Assembly: GCA_016937695.1 (NCBI GenBank)
Contig: JAFGWC010000132.1
Coordinates: 1 to 39,507, forward strand
Length of the DNA stretch: 39,507 bases
From: Bacteroidales bacterium
GTDB lineage: Bacteria; Bacteroidota; Bacteroidia; Bacteroidales; NBLH01
Reading direction: 5' to 3'
In this document: positions 6,690-11,453 of the stretch, piece after piece
How the letters are laid out: every line of letters starts with the position of its first letter
Position numbering within the stretch: position 1 is the first letter of the stretch
Notes under the pieces: model-generated
Seen by the model: the letters and a program-made list of their open reading frames with translations, nothing else
What the model was told of the DNA's origin: nothing
The model's database searches: none
Program-made: the position numbers and the translations under genes

Positions 6690-7322
6690 ATGAATAATAT
6701 TGAAAAAATAATTGCGCAGGAGCTTTTGCAAATTAATGCAATAAAACTCAATCCTGCAAATCCGTTTACTTGGGCATCTGGTTGGAAATCACCTATTTAT
6801 TGCGATAATCGTAAAATTTTATCATATCCAAAAATAAGAGAAATTGTGAAAAACGCTTTTGCTGATATGCTTATTGAAGAATTTGGTATGCCCGATGTTA
6901 TTGCAGGAGTTGCAACAGGAGCTATTGCTCATGGTATGTTAGTTGCCGATATTTTAGATATACCTTTTGTATATGTAAGAGATTCCTCAAAAAAACACGG
7001 ATTAACCAATATTATAGAAGGAGTTTTAGAAGCAAATCAAAAAGTTGTTGTTATTGAAGATTTAGTTTCTACAGGCGGCAGCAGCTTAAAAGCTGTTGAA
7101 ACTATTCGTGAAAAAGGCGCCGAAGTTTTAGGAATGCTGGCAATTTTCAGTTATGGATTTGAAATGGCAGAAAATAATTTTAATAAAGCAAACTGTAAAC
7201 TTGAAACGCTTACAAATTATCAAATTTTAATTGATATAGCTCTGGAAACCAAATATATAAAGGAAACAGATATTGAAACTTTAAAACAATGGCGCAAAAA
7301 TCCTGATACTTGGATGCAGTAA
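6690..7322 (+). CDS. pyrE: Orotate phosphoribosyltransferase
   Basis: The protein has 210 residues, the standard length. The type I PRPP-binding motif VVVIEDLVSTGG is at 119-130, ahead of the SSLKAVE helix. The flexible catalytic loop contains VRDSSKKHGLTNIIEG, and the FTWASGWKSPIYCDNR segment near the N-terminus is diagnostic of PyrE. It joins orotate and PRPP to make orotidine 5'-phosphate in de novo pyrimidine synthesis in the cytoplasm. The next gene starts 22 bases after the stop on the same strand, so co-transcription is likely. Its 5' leader and promoter must lie inside the divergent Nudix gene. Confidence 0.95.
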   Translation: MNNIEKIIAQELLQINAIKLNPANPFTWASGWKSPIYCDNRKILSYPKIREIVKNAFADMLIEEFGMPDVIAGVATGAIAHGMLVADILDIPFVYVRDSSKKHGLTNIIEGVLEANQKVVVIEDLVSTGGSSLKAVETIREKGAEVLGMLAIFSYGFEMAENNFNKANCKLETLTNYQILIDIALETKYIKETDIETLKQWRKNPDTWMQ

Positions 7323-7344: not shown

Positions 7345-8868
7345 ATGAAATTTAAAAAAATCAAAAATATTTTAGAATTCATTTTAAACGCAATATTCTC
7401 ATTATTAGCTGTTTATCTTCTAGTTCTTCTGCTTTTTCCTAATATCAATTTTATTGAAACTAATAGCTTTTATTTAATTGTAATTATTGAAATATACCTT
7501 GTAGTTTTTTTACTGATTAATACTTTTAAAGATATTTTTAGCAAAGTTTTTCCTAGATATTTAAGCTTTTTAGTTGCTTTTTTTCTATATTATTATTCTC
7601 AATACATTTTTTTTTATTTTAAATTCGATAATCCTGATATTATTTATCTTAATTCAGTTTTTACAATTTATATTTTTATCCAATATTTAATATTTAAAAA
7701 TATTAAATACAATAAAAAAATAAAATTTCCTGATAAATCAATTTTTAAGTGGAATTATATTATTATTTTATTCTCAATTTCATTTATTTCAATTTTTATT
7801 ATTTTAAAAAAAAGCGAATTTGATAATAAACAAATAATTTTATACTCATCAAGTTTTTTATTTGCAATTAATCCTTTTTTTAATAAAAGACTGTTGCAAA
7901 TATTTAATAATAATCTGCAATTAGCTTTAAATCAATTAAATATAAATGCAAACTCTTTTTTTTTATTAAAAATTTTTCAAATTAAAACATTTGTTTTTTC
8001 AAGAAAAAAACTAATTGGAAGCGGCGAATATATTTTAGATAATTTTATTCAAAGGCATACTCAAAAGCGCGAAACTGTTTTAAATATTGCTGCTTCTTTA
8101 TTTAAGCTTTGGCAAAGCAATTTTTTTGAAATTATTGAAAGCGAAATGGAAAACCAAGCAGATATTATTGATTTAGAGATAATTATAAAAAATAATGAGG
8201 GAATAATTGTAAACGATAAAAATGAAAATGAGTATATTCTGGGATTTTATTCATTTATAAAAGAATTTTCAGAAGTTAAAAATACACATACTTTTTACCT
8301 TTTAAAAAATAAAATTATTGCCGGCAAATTTAATGTTTTTGAAAAAACAAACACAAATAATTTGCTGATTGTTAATATTTTAAATAAATATGGAAATACA
8401 GTTTTATTAAATAATGATGATAAAATTAATTTTAATTCAGATGTTGTCGAATTTGATAAAACATATTTTTGCGAAGATGTTGAACAGGAAAAAGACATTT
8501 TAAATAAATTAAATTCTAAAGCACCAACAGCTTTTTTTACAAAAAATAAAACTCTTATTTCTCAAGCCGATTTAACTTTCCATATTGCTGATAATACGGC
8601 TTCAGATGAAAATAATGAAAATTATTTAAGTTTACCTGAAAGTAAAATTAATGAAATTGAAAATTTAATGCTTTTAACCAAAAAAGTGCATATTTGGTTA
8701 AATTATGCACTTTTAATTTTTGTTTCAATTAATATTTTAATGTTAATTTTTGCAGCATTTTTTTATATGTATCCAATTTTAATTTTATCGCTAAATATAA
8801 CAATATCAGTTATTTACATGTTAGTGTTTAACAAAATGCCTTTTAAATCTAAATTAAAAAAATATTAA
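7345..8868 (+). CDS. Degenerate P1B-type (CopA-like) ATPase homologue, predicted pseudo-pump
   Basis: The protein has 507 residues from the ATG at 7345; a TTG directly before it is unlikely to be the start. I predict eight membrane helices. Six lie before residue ~188 (about 11-32, 43-60, 72-93, 100-118, 137-155, 164-178) and two at 451-472 and 474-495, the P1B layout MA, MB, M1-M4, M5, M6. Matching it to CopA by eye gives near-constant spacing. INP (175-177) sits where CPC should be, and FSRKKLIGSGE (218-228) where FDKTGTLTEGK should be. IAASLFKLWQSNFFEII matches the N-domain AASLExxSEHPLA helix, LLNNDD replaces LTGD, and AFFTKNKTLISQAD replaces the GDGxND...QAD region. The phosphorylated Asp, TGD, GDGxND, HP and metal Cys are absent, and only about 20 residues link helices 4 and 5, leaving no actuator domain. 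ATP-driven transport is therefore very unlikely. Function is unknown. Confidence 0.7.
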   Translation: MKFKKIKNILEFILNAIFSLLAVYLLVLLLFPNINFIETNSFYLIVIIEIYLVVFLLINTFKDIFSKVFPRYLSFLVAFFLYYYSQYIFFYFKFDNPDIIYLNSVFTIYIFIQYLIFKNIKYNKKIKFPDKSIFKWNYIIILFSISFISIFIILKKSEFDNKQIILYSSSFLFAINPFFNKRLLQIFNNNLQLALNQLNINANSFFLLKIFQIKTFVFSRKKLIGSGEYILDNFIQRHTQKRETVLNIAASLFKLWQSNFFEIIESEMENQADIIDLEIIIKNNEGIIVNDKNENEYILGFYSFIKEFSEVKNTHTFYLLKNKIIAGKFNVFEKTNTNNLLIVNILNKYGNTVLLNNDDKINFNSDVVEFDKTYFCEDVEQEKDILNKLNSKAPTAFFTKNKTLISQADLTFHIADNTASDENNENYLSLPESKINEIENLMLLTKKVHIWLNYALLIFVSINILMLIFAAFFYMYPILILSLNITISVIYMLVFNKMPFKSKLKKY

Positions 8869-8887
8869 TTTTTAATTTAGATTTTTT
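8845..8887 (+). terminator. Intrinsic terminator overlapping the 3' end of the pseudo-ATPase gene
   Basis: A perfect 16-base stem (8845-8860 with 8869-8884) encloses an 8-base loop that contains the TAA stop codon, and a T tract runs through 8887. The left arm is coding sequence for the last residues of the pseudo-ATPase. The right side runs up to the end of the convergent lipoprotein gene (8886). Confidence 0.75.
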
Positions 8888-9758
8888 AATTTCCATCCCA
8901 ACCGGCTAATCTTGTCCATAAATACCAAGCAGCATAAGCTTTCATATTTCCGTTTATAGGCTCACTGTGTGCAGTGTTGCAATTATACCAATCAACATTT
9001 AATGTATGACTGTTTTGCCAATTAATAGCCCAATTTGCATTTAAACTTCCATTTGAGTCAGAGTCGTAATAACATCCATCGTTTGCATATTTATCAAGAT
9101 AATAATTGCCATCAGGATCATACGATTCAATATCGGCAAAATCATATAAAATTTTATTGTTAGTTTTACAAAAGTTTCTTATTTGTTCATTTCTGATGTG
9201 TAAATTGCCTTCTAAGCCTGTTCCGTCAAGATGTCCGGTCATGTAAACAAATTTTACATCAGGATAATCTTTTTCCAACTTATCCATTGCATTCAAATAA
9301 ATGTTTATTCCGCCTTCTGTATTGTCAGAAACTCCGCCACACCACGACCAAATTATAACATTAATATCCTCATTTCTGTAATCGTCAAGATATGAGCGAG
9401 TTGTACTTTCCCAAGCCAAATCACCATTATGTCCTAAATCGCCTGCAATTACTCCGTCTCTTATATCAAGCGCGCCTTCTGTATCGCCATTTGTCCATTT
9501 GTATAAATCACCTTTCCAATTCATTAAACCTGTCATGCCATCAATAATTTGCGAGCCGTGCGATGTATGTCCATATGCAATATGCAAATTTTCTTTTGCA
9601 GTATTTATCCAATCTGACGGAATATTCGAAATATCAATATTACTGTGATTAAAAATAATTGCAAGTTTTGATGCTTCGTCATCATTATTTTTGTTGCAAG
9701 AAATTAATAATAATCCGAAAAAAATTAAAATGCCGAAATAATAAATAAACTTTCTCAT
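8886..9758 (-). CDS. Secreted lipoprotein with SGNH-hydrolase-like features, function unknown
   Basis: The protein has 290 residues. A short charged start, a hydrophobic stretch and the lipobox LLIS-Cys21 predict a lipoprotein. The mature part has four conspicuous blocks: AYGHTSHGSQI (62-71), INVIIWSWCGGVS (132-144), FVYMTGHLDG (170-179) and NTAHSEPINGNMKAYAAWYL (261-280), followed by TRLAGW. The order resembles a flavodoxin-like hydrolase core: a Ser-containing first block, a central strand ending in a glycine turn, and a C-terminal His block. That resembles SGNH/GDSL hydrolases, but the canonical GDS and GxND motifs are not recognisable, so the link is tentative. Richness in Asp, Asn and Trp would suit carbohydrate binding. 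It converges on the pseudo-ATPase gene, and its upstream region carries a striking inverted repeat. Confidence 0.6.
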   Translation of the reverse strand: MRKFIYYFGILIFFGLLLISCNKNNDDEASKLAIIFNHSNIDISNIPSDWINTAKENLHIAYGHTSHGSQIIDGMTGLMNWKGDLYKWTNGDTEGALDIRDGVIAGDLGHNGDLAWESTTRSYLDDYRNEDINVIIWSWCGGVSDNTEGGINIYLNAMDKLEKDYPDVKFVYMTGHLDGTGLEGNLHIRNEQIRNFCKTNNKILYDFADIESYDPDGNYYLDKYANDGCYYDSDSNGSLNANWAINWQNSHTLNVDWYNCNTAHSEPINGNMKAYAAWYLWTRLAGWDGN

Positions 9759-10044: not shown

Positions 10045-10713
10045 ATGGACGAAGTTGCTTTAAAATATAAAGAATTAAAAAAAAGATTCAGAACCAGAGA
10101 AAATGGACCTGCAGTTGAAAGCATGATTCGGTTTGGATTAATTTACCAAAAAAATCATGGCGTTGCTTTATCTGAATTAGCCGAGATGGCAAAAGATTAT
10201 AAAAATGATAGTGTTTTTGCCGAGTTTTTATGGAAACAAAATATCAGAGAAGCAAAAATTCTTTCTCTTATGATAGATAATCCTGAAAATATTACGGAAC
10301 AAAGAATAAAAACAATTCTTGAAAACATCAATAATATTGAACTGGCAGAGCAAGCTTGTTATAATTTATTCGAAAAAGTTGAAGGAATATTATCAGAAAT
10401 AAAAAATTGGTTATCAAACCCAAATAAATATTATAAAATAACCGGATTAATATTAATTTCCCGAATTTTAAAAACTAAAAATAATATTAATAATGAAGAA
10501 ATATTAAAGTTTTTTGATATTTTTGATGAAATAGCTAAAGAAGATAACATGCTTATAGTTAGGAGTTTATCTAAAGCTCTTTTGCAAATCGGTAAAAAGG
10601 ATGAAAATTTTGAAAAATTGGTTTTAGATTTTATCACAAAAATTAATGAAAAGGGATACAAGTCTGCGGCTTGGCTTAAAGAAGAAGTCGTTTATTTTTT
10701 AATAAACAAATAA
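10045..10713 (+). CDS. DNA alkylation repair protein, AlkD-like (HEAT-like repeats)
   Basis: The protein has 222 residues, predicted to be all alpha-helical. The helical pairs MIRFGLIYQKNHGVALSELA, DSVFAEFLWKQNIREAKIL and ELAEQACYNLFEKVEGI, and the later ILKFFDIFDEIAKEDNMLIV, match the ARM/HEAT-like build of the AlkC/AlkD family. The FAEFLWKQNIREAKILSLMI segment is especially like the AlkD core, where Trp and Arg/Asp residues line the DNA groove. Enzymes of this fold excise N3- and N7-alkylated purines, but many Bacteroidota members are untested and some relatives lack glycosylase activity. The next gene begins 12 bases after its stop, which suggests an operon with the Bax-inhibitor protein. 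Confidence 0.65.
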   Translation: MDEVALKYKELKKRFRTRENGPAVESMIRFGLIYQKNHGVALSELAEMAKDYKNDSVFAEFLWKQNIREAKILSLMIDNPENITEQRIKTILENINNIELAEQACYNLFEKVEGILSEIKNWLSNPNKYYKITGLILISRILKTKNNINNEEILKFFDIFDEIAKEDNMLIVRSLSKALLQIGKKDENFEKLVLDFITKINEKGYKSAAWLKEEVVYFLINK

Positions 10714-10724
10714 AAAAAACAGAT

Positions 10725-11453
10725 ATGAGAATAGGACAATCATCAAATCCTGCATTAAGCAAAAATGCTTTATCAAGAGTTTACAATACTTCTGATGTTG
10801 GACAAATGACGATAAACGGAACAGTTAATAAAACTATATTAAGTTTATTGCTTGTAATGCTTTCAGCATATTTTACTTGGAAATACAATTTTGGAATGGG
10901 CATAGGTATGGTTGGTGCCATAGTTGGATTTATTTTAGCAATGGTAACAGTTTTTAAATCAGAATGGGCACATATTACAACTCCTTTTTACGCAATTTTC
11001 GAAGGATTATTTTTAGGAAGTGTTTCTGCATATTTTAATGCAATGTTTTCAGGAATTGTTTTTCAGGCTGTTGGTTTAACATTCGGAGTTGCTTTTGCAA
11101 TGCTTTTTGCATATCGTTCCGGTTTAATTAAAGCAACACCTAAATTCCAAAAAGGAATTATTGCTGCAACAGGCGGAATTGCAATTTTTTATATTTTAAA
11201 TCTGATTTTAGGTTTTTTTGGCGGCGGAGTTTCACTTGCAAACATGGGTTTATTAGGTATTGGAATTCAGCTAGTTATAGTTGGTGTAGCCGCTTTAAAT
11301 CTAATTCTTGATTTTGATATGATTGAAAAGCTTTCTAAAACAGGAGCACCTAAAGTTATGGAATGGTATGGTGCATTTGGGCTTTTGGTTACATTAGTTT
11401 GGTTGTATTTTGAAATACTAAAACTTTTATCGTTGCTTTCTAACAGGGATTAA
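10725..11453 (+). CDS. Bax inhibitor-1/YccA family membrane protein
   Basis: The protein has 242 residues with a cytoplasmic N-terminus of about 35 residues (SSNPALSKNALSRVYNTSDV) and about seven membrane helices. TPFYAIFEGLFLGSVSAYFN and LNLILDFDMIEKLSKTGAPK are the family landmarks. The latter carries the DFD(M)I acidic pair linked in relatives such as BsYetJ to the pH-sensitive calcium-leak pore. The EWYGAFGLLVTLVWLYFEIL end is also typical of the YccA-like branch common in Bacteroidota. In E. coli YccA interacts with FtsH; the function here is inferred only from the family. It is probably the last gene of the unit, because a terminator overlaps its stop codon. Confidence 0.85.
   Translation: MRIGQSSNPALSKNALSRVYNTSDVGQMTINGTVNKTILSLLLVMLSAYFTWKYNFGMGIGMVGAIVGFILAMVTVFKSEWAHITTPFYAIFEGLFLGSVSAYFNAMFSGIVFQAVGLTFGVAFAMLFAYRSGLIKATPKFQKGIIAATGGIAIFYILNLILGFFGGGVSLANMGLLGIGIQLVIVGVAALNLILDFDMIEKLSKTGAPKVMEWYGAFGLLVTLVWLYFEILKLLSLLSNRD

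Follow-up and report, generated by a model that had tools for sequence, protein, structure and literature searches.

A rare, fast-changing and apparently maintained pseudo-P1B-ATPase family in Bacteroidales

Can the scaffold of an ion pump be kept in a bacterium after the chemistry that drives it has gone? Pseudoenzymes, which keep a catalytic fold and have lost active-site residues, are well known among kinases and proteases (e.g., the pseudokinases), and a regulatory or scaffold role is expected of them. P-type pumps, on the other hand, are usually thought to require all three of their cytosolic domains. The question is raised by a contig of 39,507 nucleotides from a Bacteroidales bacterium (genome G000), here called the window in its full length, in which the gene following pyrE encodes a protein of 507 residues (P0001). 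A first-pass annotation had described this protein as a P1B copper-pump scaffold that lost its catalytic motifs and is maintained rather than decaying, and had named structure prediction, profile searches, homologues with the same losses and the conservation of the pyrE neighbourhood as ways of checking this. All of these were followed up; the features discussed below are collected in Table 1.

Table 1. Features of the pseudo-pump gene and its neighbours in the window
Feature	Residues	Position	Strand	Remarks
pyrE		6690..7322	+	Conserved upstream neighbour
Pseudo-P1B-ATPase gene	507 aa	7345..8868	+	Starts 22 nt after pyrE; open frame and homology to pumps
Four N-terminal helices	2-121	7348..7707	+	Positional equivalents of MA, MB, M1 and M2 in P1B pumps; low-confidence model
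Loop in the place of the actuator domain	122-130	7708..7734	+	Model and alignment; genome without a PF00122 match
M4	161-180	7825..7884	+	INP at residues 175-177; Pro column kept in 6/10 members
P-domain with inserted N-domain	204-436	7954..8652	+	HAD-like fold, catalytic motifs lost
FSRKK	218-222	7996..8010	+	FDKTG site; Ser219 replaces the phosphorylated Asp
W256	256	8110..8112	+	In 8/10 relatives; Ser in 62/63 pumps; beside the lost HP motif
N351	351	8395..8397	+	In 10/10 of the family; Asn in 7/64 pumps
D371-K372-x-Y374 (FDKxY motif)	371-374	8455..8466	+	Family motif; Tyr also commonest in pumps, 43/64
K392-A-P-T-A396 (KAPTA)	392-396	8518..8532	+	Just before the lost GDGxND; last Ala usual in pumps, 50/64
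M5	450-472	8692..8760	+	Model and alignment
N463	463	8731..8733	+	Position of the CopA Cu-site Asn (YN of M5); N, Q, E or H in 9/9
M6	477-497	8773..8835	+	Met of the pump in 0/9 members, its Ser in 3/9
PF08713 (DNA_alkylation, HEAT-like) gene		10045..10713	+	Downstream neighbour
Bax-inhibitor-1-like gene (PF12811, YccA-type)		10725..11453	+	Downstream neighbour

The frame contains no stop in its 507 codons, as had been stated, and the chance that a random frame stays open over this length is about 2e-22 for the same composition and 7e-13 when composition is taken by codon position. With a GC content of 0.194 the gene is the lowest among the 24 tabulated window genes (window, 0.281), and F, I, N, K and Y make up half of the residues of its product. 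Promoter and terminator scans gave nothing above shuffled sequences. Sequence searches with P0001 alone against Pfam, NCBIfam and the PDB returned chance matches or none, none of them significant, and a Pfam scan of eight members of its family gave no clear match, with one member touching the Hydrolase model at E 0.067. The kinship to P1B pumps is visible only through a profile of relatives: an eight-row family profile ranks copper-transporting P-type ATPases first in the PDB (E 1.3e-8), the family profile matches intact CopA-like pumps among 395 genomes of the class with E values down to 1.5e-41, and an hhalign comparison with one intact pump (L008) gives 98.6% probability over residues 204-493. 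Singly, five of the eight members match TIGR01525 (E up to 1, best 2.7e-8; P0001 is not among them) and two match TIGR01511 (best 1.3e-8). P1B ATPases are also the top PDB matches for the AlphaFold models of both P0001 (mean pLDDT 70, pTM 0.58) and its relative from G022 (L006; pLDDT 66, pTM 0.54), and VIA-align gives Z 17.1 (219 aligned, rmsd 3.3) for the ATP-binding domain of CopA and Z 17.0 (418 aligned, rmsd 7.9) for a whole CopA. The resemblance of P0001 to CopA is not due to chance. Both the predicted structure, with its HAD-like P-domain and P1B core, and the profile searches bear out the kinship originally proposed.

In the model of P0001, four helices are followed by a short loop, two helices, a cytosolic alpha/beta part (residues 204-436) and two final helices. 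The soluble part, a HAD-like P-domain with an inserted N-domain between M4 and M5, is modelled with confidence. The eight-helix CopA layout of the first-pass annotation is borne out only in part: the model does contain eight helices, yet pLDDT is only about 41-64 for the first four of them and a strict hydropathy scan finds six segments. No HMA metal-binding domain lies ahead of the N-terminal helices. The actuator domain is gone, as had been claimed, but the loop in its place has nine residues in the model (between helices 97-121 and 131-154) and not about 20, and its TGES motif is missing from the alignment. The claim that the landmarks keep the CopA spacing to within one residue holds: 42 residues separate P177 and S219, as compared to 43 between the CPC proline and the phosphorylated Asp of an intact pump.

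The fate of the catalytic motifs was followed in an alignment of ten relatives with 64 intact pumps. The pump rows had been picked by DKTGT and GDGxND, and the counts of these two motifs in pumps are therefore given by construction, while those of CPC, HP and YN are not. In P0001, CPC is replaced by NPF, DKTGT by SRKKL, HP by SN and TGD by NND, and GDGxND is absent. The initial statement that all motifs had been replaced is thus correct for CPC, DKTGT, HP and GDGxND and has to be amended for TGD, the Asp of which is kept. The losses extend through the family: CPC, HP and DKTGT are kept in none of ten members and GDGxND in none of the nine reaching that far, neither a Cys at the CPC site nor the His of HP occurs in any of the ten, and a CxxC motif, looked for in the alignment, is absent. 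The column of the phosphorylated Asp reads S, A, S, Q, D, E, S, L, S, S, the sole Asp being that of the G089 relative (L007), in which the rest of DKTGT is lost. Some traces are left: a basic residue persists at the DKTGT lysine in nine of ten members, three of ten including P0001 retain the Asp of TGD without T and G, and in four of nine an Asp aligns with the last one of GDGxND. With its ATP chemistry gone, P0001 should not hydrolyse ATP and hence should not pump, as judged from these motifs. We are highly confident that it is a pseudo-P1B-ATPase, that is, a protein of pump ancestry that has lost the catalytic parts.

P0001 is not alone. A search of 99 genomes with P0001, its own included, gave matches at E 0.1 in 15, seven of which are of the same short kind. 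When a seven-row profile was run over 393 genomes of the order, 34 matched at E 1e-5, ten with proteins of the short kind and 24 with frames of 701-841 residues, except for one of 323 residues at a contig edge. With G004, added from the P0001 search, the carriers number 11 and belong to five families of a single order (G000, G001, G003-G006, G022, G062, G168, G089 and G282; G003-G006 share the genus of G000). The same losses, predicted to recur if the protein is maintained, are found in nine genomes other than G000, and a tenth (G001) has no more than a C-terminal fragment, located at the edge of a contig. Open frames are present in ten genomes, one of them truncated where its contig ends, and are 19-33% identical to P0001, and the stops counted in the matches of G001, G003, G004, G022 and G089 sit only at match edges. 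With a cut-off of 1e-25, matches occur in 57 of 395 genomes of the class (G000 and 56 others with frames of 639-791 residues, except for one of 329 residues), and with one of 1e-42 G000 alone is matched among 395 genomes of the phylum; mostly three candidates per genome were scored here. The first profile, for comparison, gave L025 no better than 2.9e-38 and L027 no better than 1.1e-22. Members at the distance of those in G168 or G062 would escape thresholds as strict as these, so that the family may extend further. Among the fetched loci L026-L077 (52 in all), 49 encode a protein with DKTGT and GDGxND and three encode one of the short kind; four of the 24 long frames from the order search lie outside this set. 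Matches obtained with P0001 alone in distant genomes (L010-L015 and L017, E 0.004-0.08) are weak, and the frames of L017 look like a different protein.

In a phylogenetic tree, the short-kind members fall on one side of a branch with support 100/100; long branches may be falsely drawn together, and the end branches here reach 7.1 changes per column. Shared neighbours and shared residues argue for one origin, and the tree agrees. The losses happened probably once, in one group of what are taken to be Bacteroidales. Reduction has gone further in some members. The proteins of G004 (L002:1155-2490) and G003 (L004:1312-2232 with L016:1-330) lack the four N-terminal helices and stop soon after M5, M6 being mostly or wholly missing; in G004 most of M3 is missing as well and stops occur upstream in all three frames. 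The G005 protein has fewer N-terminal helices.

If catalysis is gone, it is of interest which positions have been kept and which have newly become conserved. In CopA, the Asn of a Tyr-Asn pair in M5 belongs to the second copper site, according to PMC7558416. The corresponding column in the pseudo-pumps, that of N463, reads N, Q, E, N, N, H, N, Q, N over nine members; strongly polar residues fill nine of its nine cells versus one of 126 in the rest of residues 458-472, a contrast that has to be read with the column having been picked after the alignment had been viewed. Separate C-terminal pieces from G003 and G001, aligned by eye, have N and E at this position. Conservation has been gained in the cytosolic part, not only at W256 and N351 (Table 1) but also at R237 (8/10), N347 (9/10) and K392. 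Such new conserved residues would not be expected from pure decay.

Evidence for purifying selection after the catalytic loss comes from one close pair, G003 and G004 (59% identity, 221 codons), the only one close enough for a useful rate. Its dN/dS is 0.18 (bootstrap 95% 0.05-0.31), an estimate that is rough because dS is about 1.5 and thus near saturation; pN/pS is 0.36 (0.28-0.46). For pyrE of the same two genomes dN/dS is 0.10, and nine other within-genus pairs of pseudo-pumps give 0.21-0.76 at dS 1.0-3.0. The constraint on the pseudo-pump seems real, yet weaker than that on pyrE.

The genetic environment was inspected as well. Six carriers (G000, G003, G004, G005, G006 and G089) have pyrE upstream of the pseudo-pump gene in the same orientation, the two genes overlapping by 10 nt at one extreme and standing about 370 nt apart at the other. 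The neighbourhood suggested for checking is conserved in these six of the ten carriers with more than a fragment. The nearest relatives of the G000 pyrE among 52 named loci come from a Bacteroidales MAG and a Paludibacter MAG (64% identity), and no pseudo-pump occurs in the DNA spanned by these 52 loci, in some of which the downstream part is short (56 nt in L148, 144 nt in L179). The idea that an intact CopA formerly stood beside pyrE was dropped, as the fetched loci, with flanks of about 1.5 kb, contain no such case. Downstream on the same strand, yccA is found in G000, G006, G282, G168 and G062, preceded by the PF08713 gene in four of these five, and in G168 and G062 the latter overlaps the end of the pseudo-pump gene (by 4 nt and 19 nt). 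Neither pyrE nor yccA was seen in G022, where the contig ends about 60 nt past the gene. We did not retain the pseudo-pump as a fixed member of a PF08713-yccA operon, the pair also occurring without it; its genes hint at a partner and nothing beyond that. Between the PF08713 gene and yccA of G089 lies a frame of 879 residues (L137:1560-4199) with roughly six hydrophobic segments. In the window, the pseudo-pump gene converges with a gene on the minus strand (8886-9758) for a 290-aa protein with a lipoprotein-like start and no Pfam family, and a 67% identical relative of this protein is encoded at the same convergent place in G006.

A PF00122 domain is found neither in G000, the genome of which is 99.6% complete, nor in four other carriers, among them G004 and G089 (59% and 77% complete). 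This is not remarkable in itself, since 61 of 247 genomes of the order have no match at E 0.001. The idea that a working pump is needed in trans was abandoned in view of G000, and that the pseudo-pump acts as a partner of, or inhibits, a functional P1B pump of its own cell is very improbable, the six carriers with at least one PF00122 protein standing against the five that show none.

The main rival to a maintained function is that the gene is a decaying copper-pump gene, in which catalysis was lost and nothing gained, the open frame reflecting no more than slow decay or pieces that do no harm yet. The very long branches, the patchy distribution (10 carriers among the 393 genomes of the order, most relatives searched being without a pseudo-pump), the lowest GC content of the tabulated genes and dN/dS values up to 0.76 between distant pairs are all in keeping with decay, and as G003 and G004 have lost outer helices at both ends, it stays a live rival. 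It has, however, to account for frames that are open in ten genomes at identities far past the reach of neutral drift, for new conserved residues common to the members, for the conserved place beside pyrE or yccA and for a low dN/dS in just that closest pair, G003 and G004, whose proteins are the eroded ones. We consider decay rather unlikely, and a maintained function of the pseudo-P1B family likely. The original claim of a maintained gene, made without notice of the polar M5 position or of the outer helices lost at both ends in two relatives, has gained the selection in one pair and the new conserved residues.

Other functional readings are weaker. The order pseudo-pump, PF08713 gene, yccA with its overlaps in G168 and G062, together with the presence of both neighbours nearby in G000 and G006 and of yccA in G282, would fit an assembly or regulatory subunit acting with the downstream HEAT-like and Bax-inhibitor-1-like membrane proteins. 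We regard this as improbable: seven of 30 loci have the PF08713-yccA pair without a pseudo-pump, none is found in the six of these with longer upstream sequence, and in G089 the pseudo-pump and yccA are on different contigs. A passive conduit or carrier, through which an ion, a metal or a lipid would move down its gradient by way of the polar M5 residue without ATP, could build on the N, Q, E or H present in this column in nine of nine members, on the M4 proline in six of ten and on the precedent of TMEM94, for which PMC12134183 describes a gorge of M3, M4, M5 and M7 that holds a phosphatidic-acid-shaped lipid. Apart from this residue both copper sites are lost, however (CPC in 0/10, Met of M6 in 0/9, its Ser in 3/9), G003 and G004 lack the outer helices, and a lone polar residue may just pack helices, so that a conduit appears slightly more improbable still.

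Selection seems to hold the M4 and M5 helices, one polar residue and the shape of the P/N module, and for this reason a role as sensor or docking scaffold is proposed; the first-pass annotation had cautiously named a sensor, scaffold or assembly factor. On this view a P1B copper ATPase of the CopA type has lost the HMA domain, the actuator domain, the copper site and ATP chemistry, and the relic was then retained as a non-catalytic membrane protein. The M4-M5 helix core with the polar N463 may form a small membrane pocket, the nucleotide cleft would be altered by a Trp where pumps have Ser before HP, and the P/N module would serve as a cytosolic platform for a putative partner protein and signal. 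Against this count the Asp residues left at the TGD and GDGxND sites and neighbours that are for the most part housekeeping genes. Overall, the best explanation is a non-catalytic membrane protein, maintained and built on the core of CopA, that serves as sensor or docking scaffold, and we hold it with somewhat better than even confidence; that the role is sensing or scaffolding instead of another one is inferred at slightly less than even confidence. A more specific version, in which the pump turned into a membrane receptor with the M5 polar position as ligand pocket and the P/N module (W256, N351, FDKxY, KAPTA) as signalling platform, is a tentative suggestion that we consider rather unlikely.

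P0001 shares the modelled helix order, the P/N fold and the spacing between M4 and the phosphorylation site with CopA (P1B-1; TIGR01511/TIGR01525; PDB 3j09, 3rfu, 7r0g), and the family shares the M4 proline (in most members) and the polar M5 residue. In contrast to CopA, it is devoid of HMA and actuator domains and of CPC, DKTGT, HP and GDGxND, and ATP chemistry is not to be expected. Like pseudoenzymes in general, it has kept the fold and lost the active site. The nearest parallel is human TMEM94 (ERMA), whose P-type-ATPase-like core is reported to be without ATPase activity or a Post-Albers cycle (PMC12134183), while another paper calls TMEM94 an ER Mg2+ ATPase, so that its status is disputed (PMC13322241). 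TMEM94 differs from the pseudo-pump in being eukaryotic and in having ten helices and an A-like domain. The P4-ATPase-like domain of the Plasmodium guanylyl cyclase was dropped as an analogue, its authors arguing that it is active (PMC7858053).

Pseudoenzymes as a kind are already known; within the literature and databases searched, the present family is new. No inactive bacterial P-type pump family was found in that literature, among the matches listed, the looser of which were judged by title, and this agrees with the earlier remark that no described family like it was known. The pseudo-P1B-ATPases form a rare, fast-changing and apparently maintained family. Routine annotation can miss it, as eight members are without a clear Pfam match and P0001 is without an NCBIfam match. 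By keeping the P/N module, the pump core and one transport-site position without the catalytic motifs, the family offers a way of asking which parts of the pump fold can work without ATP.
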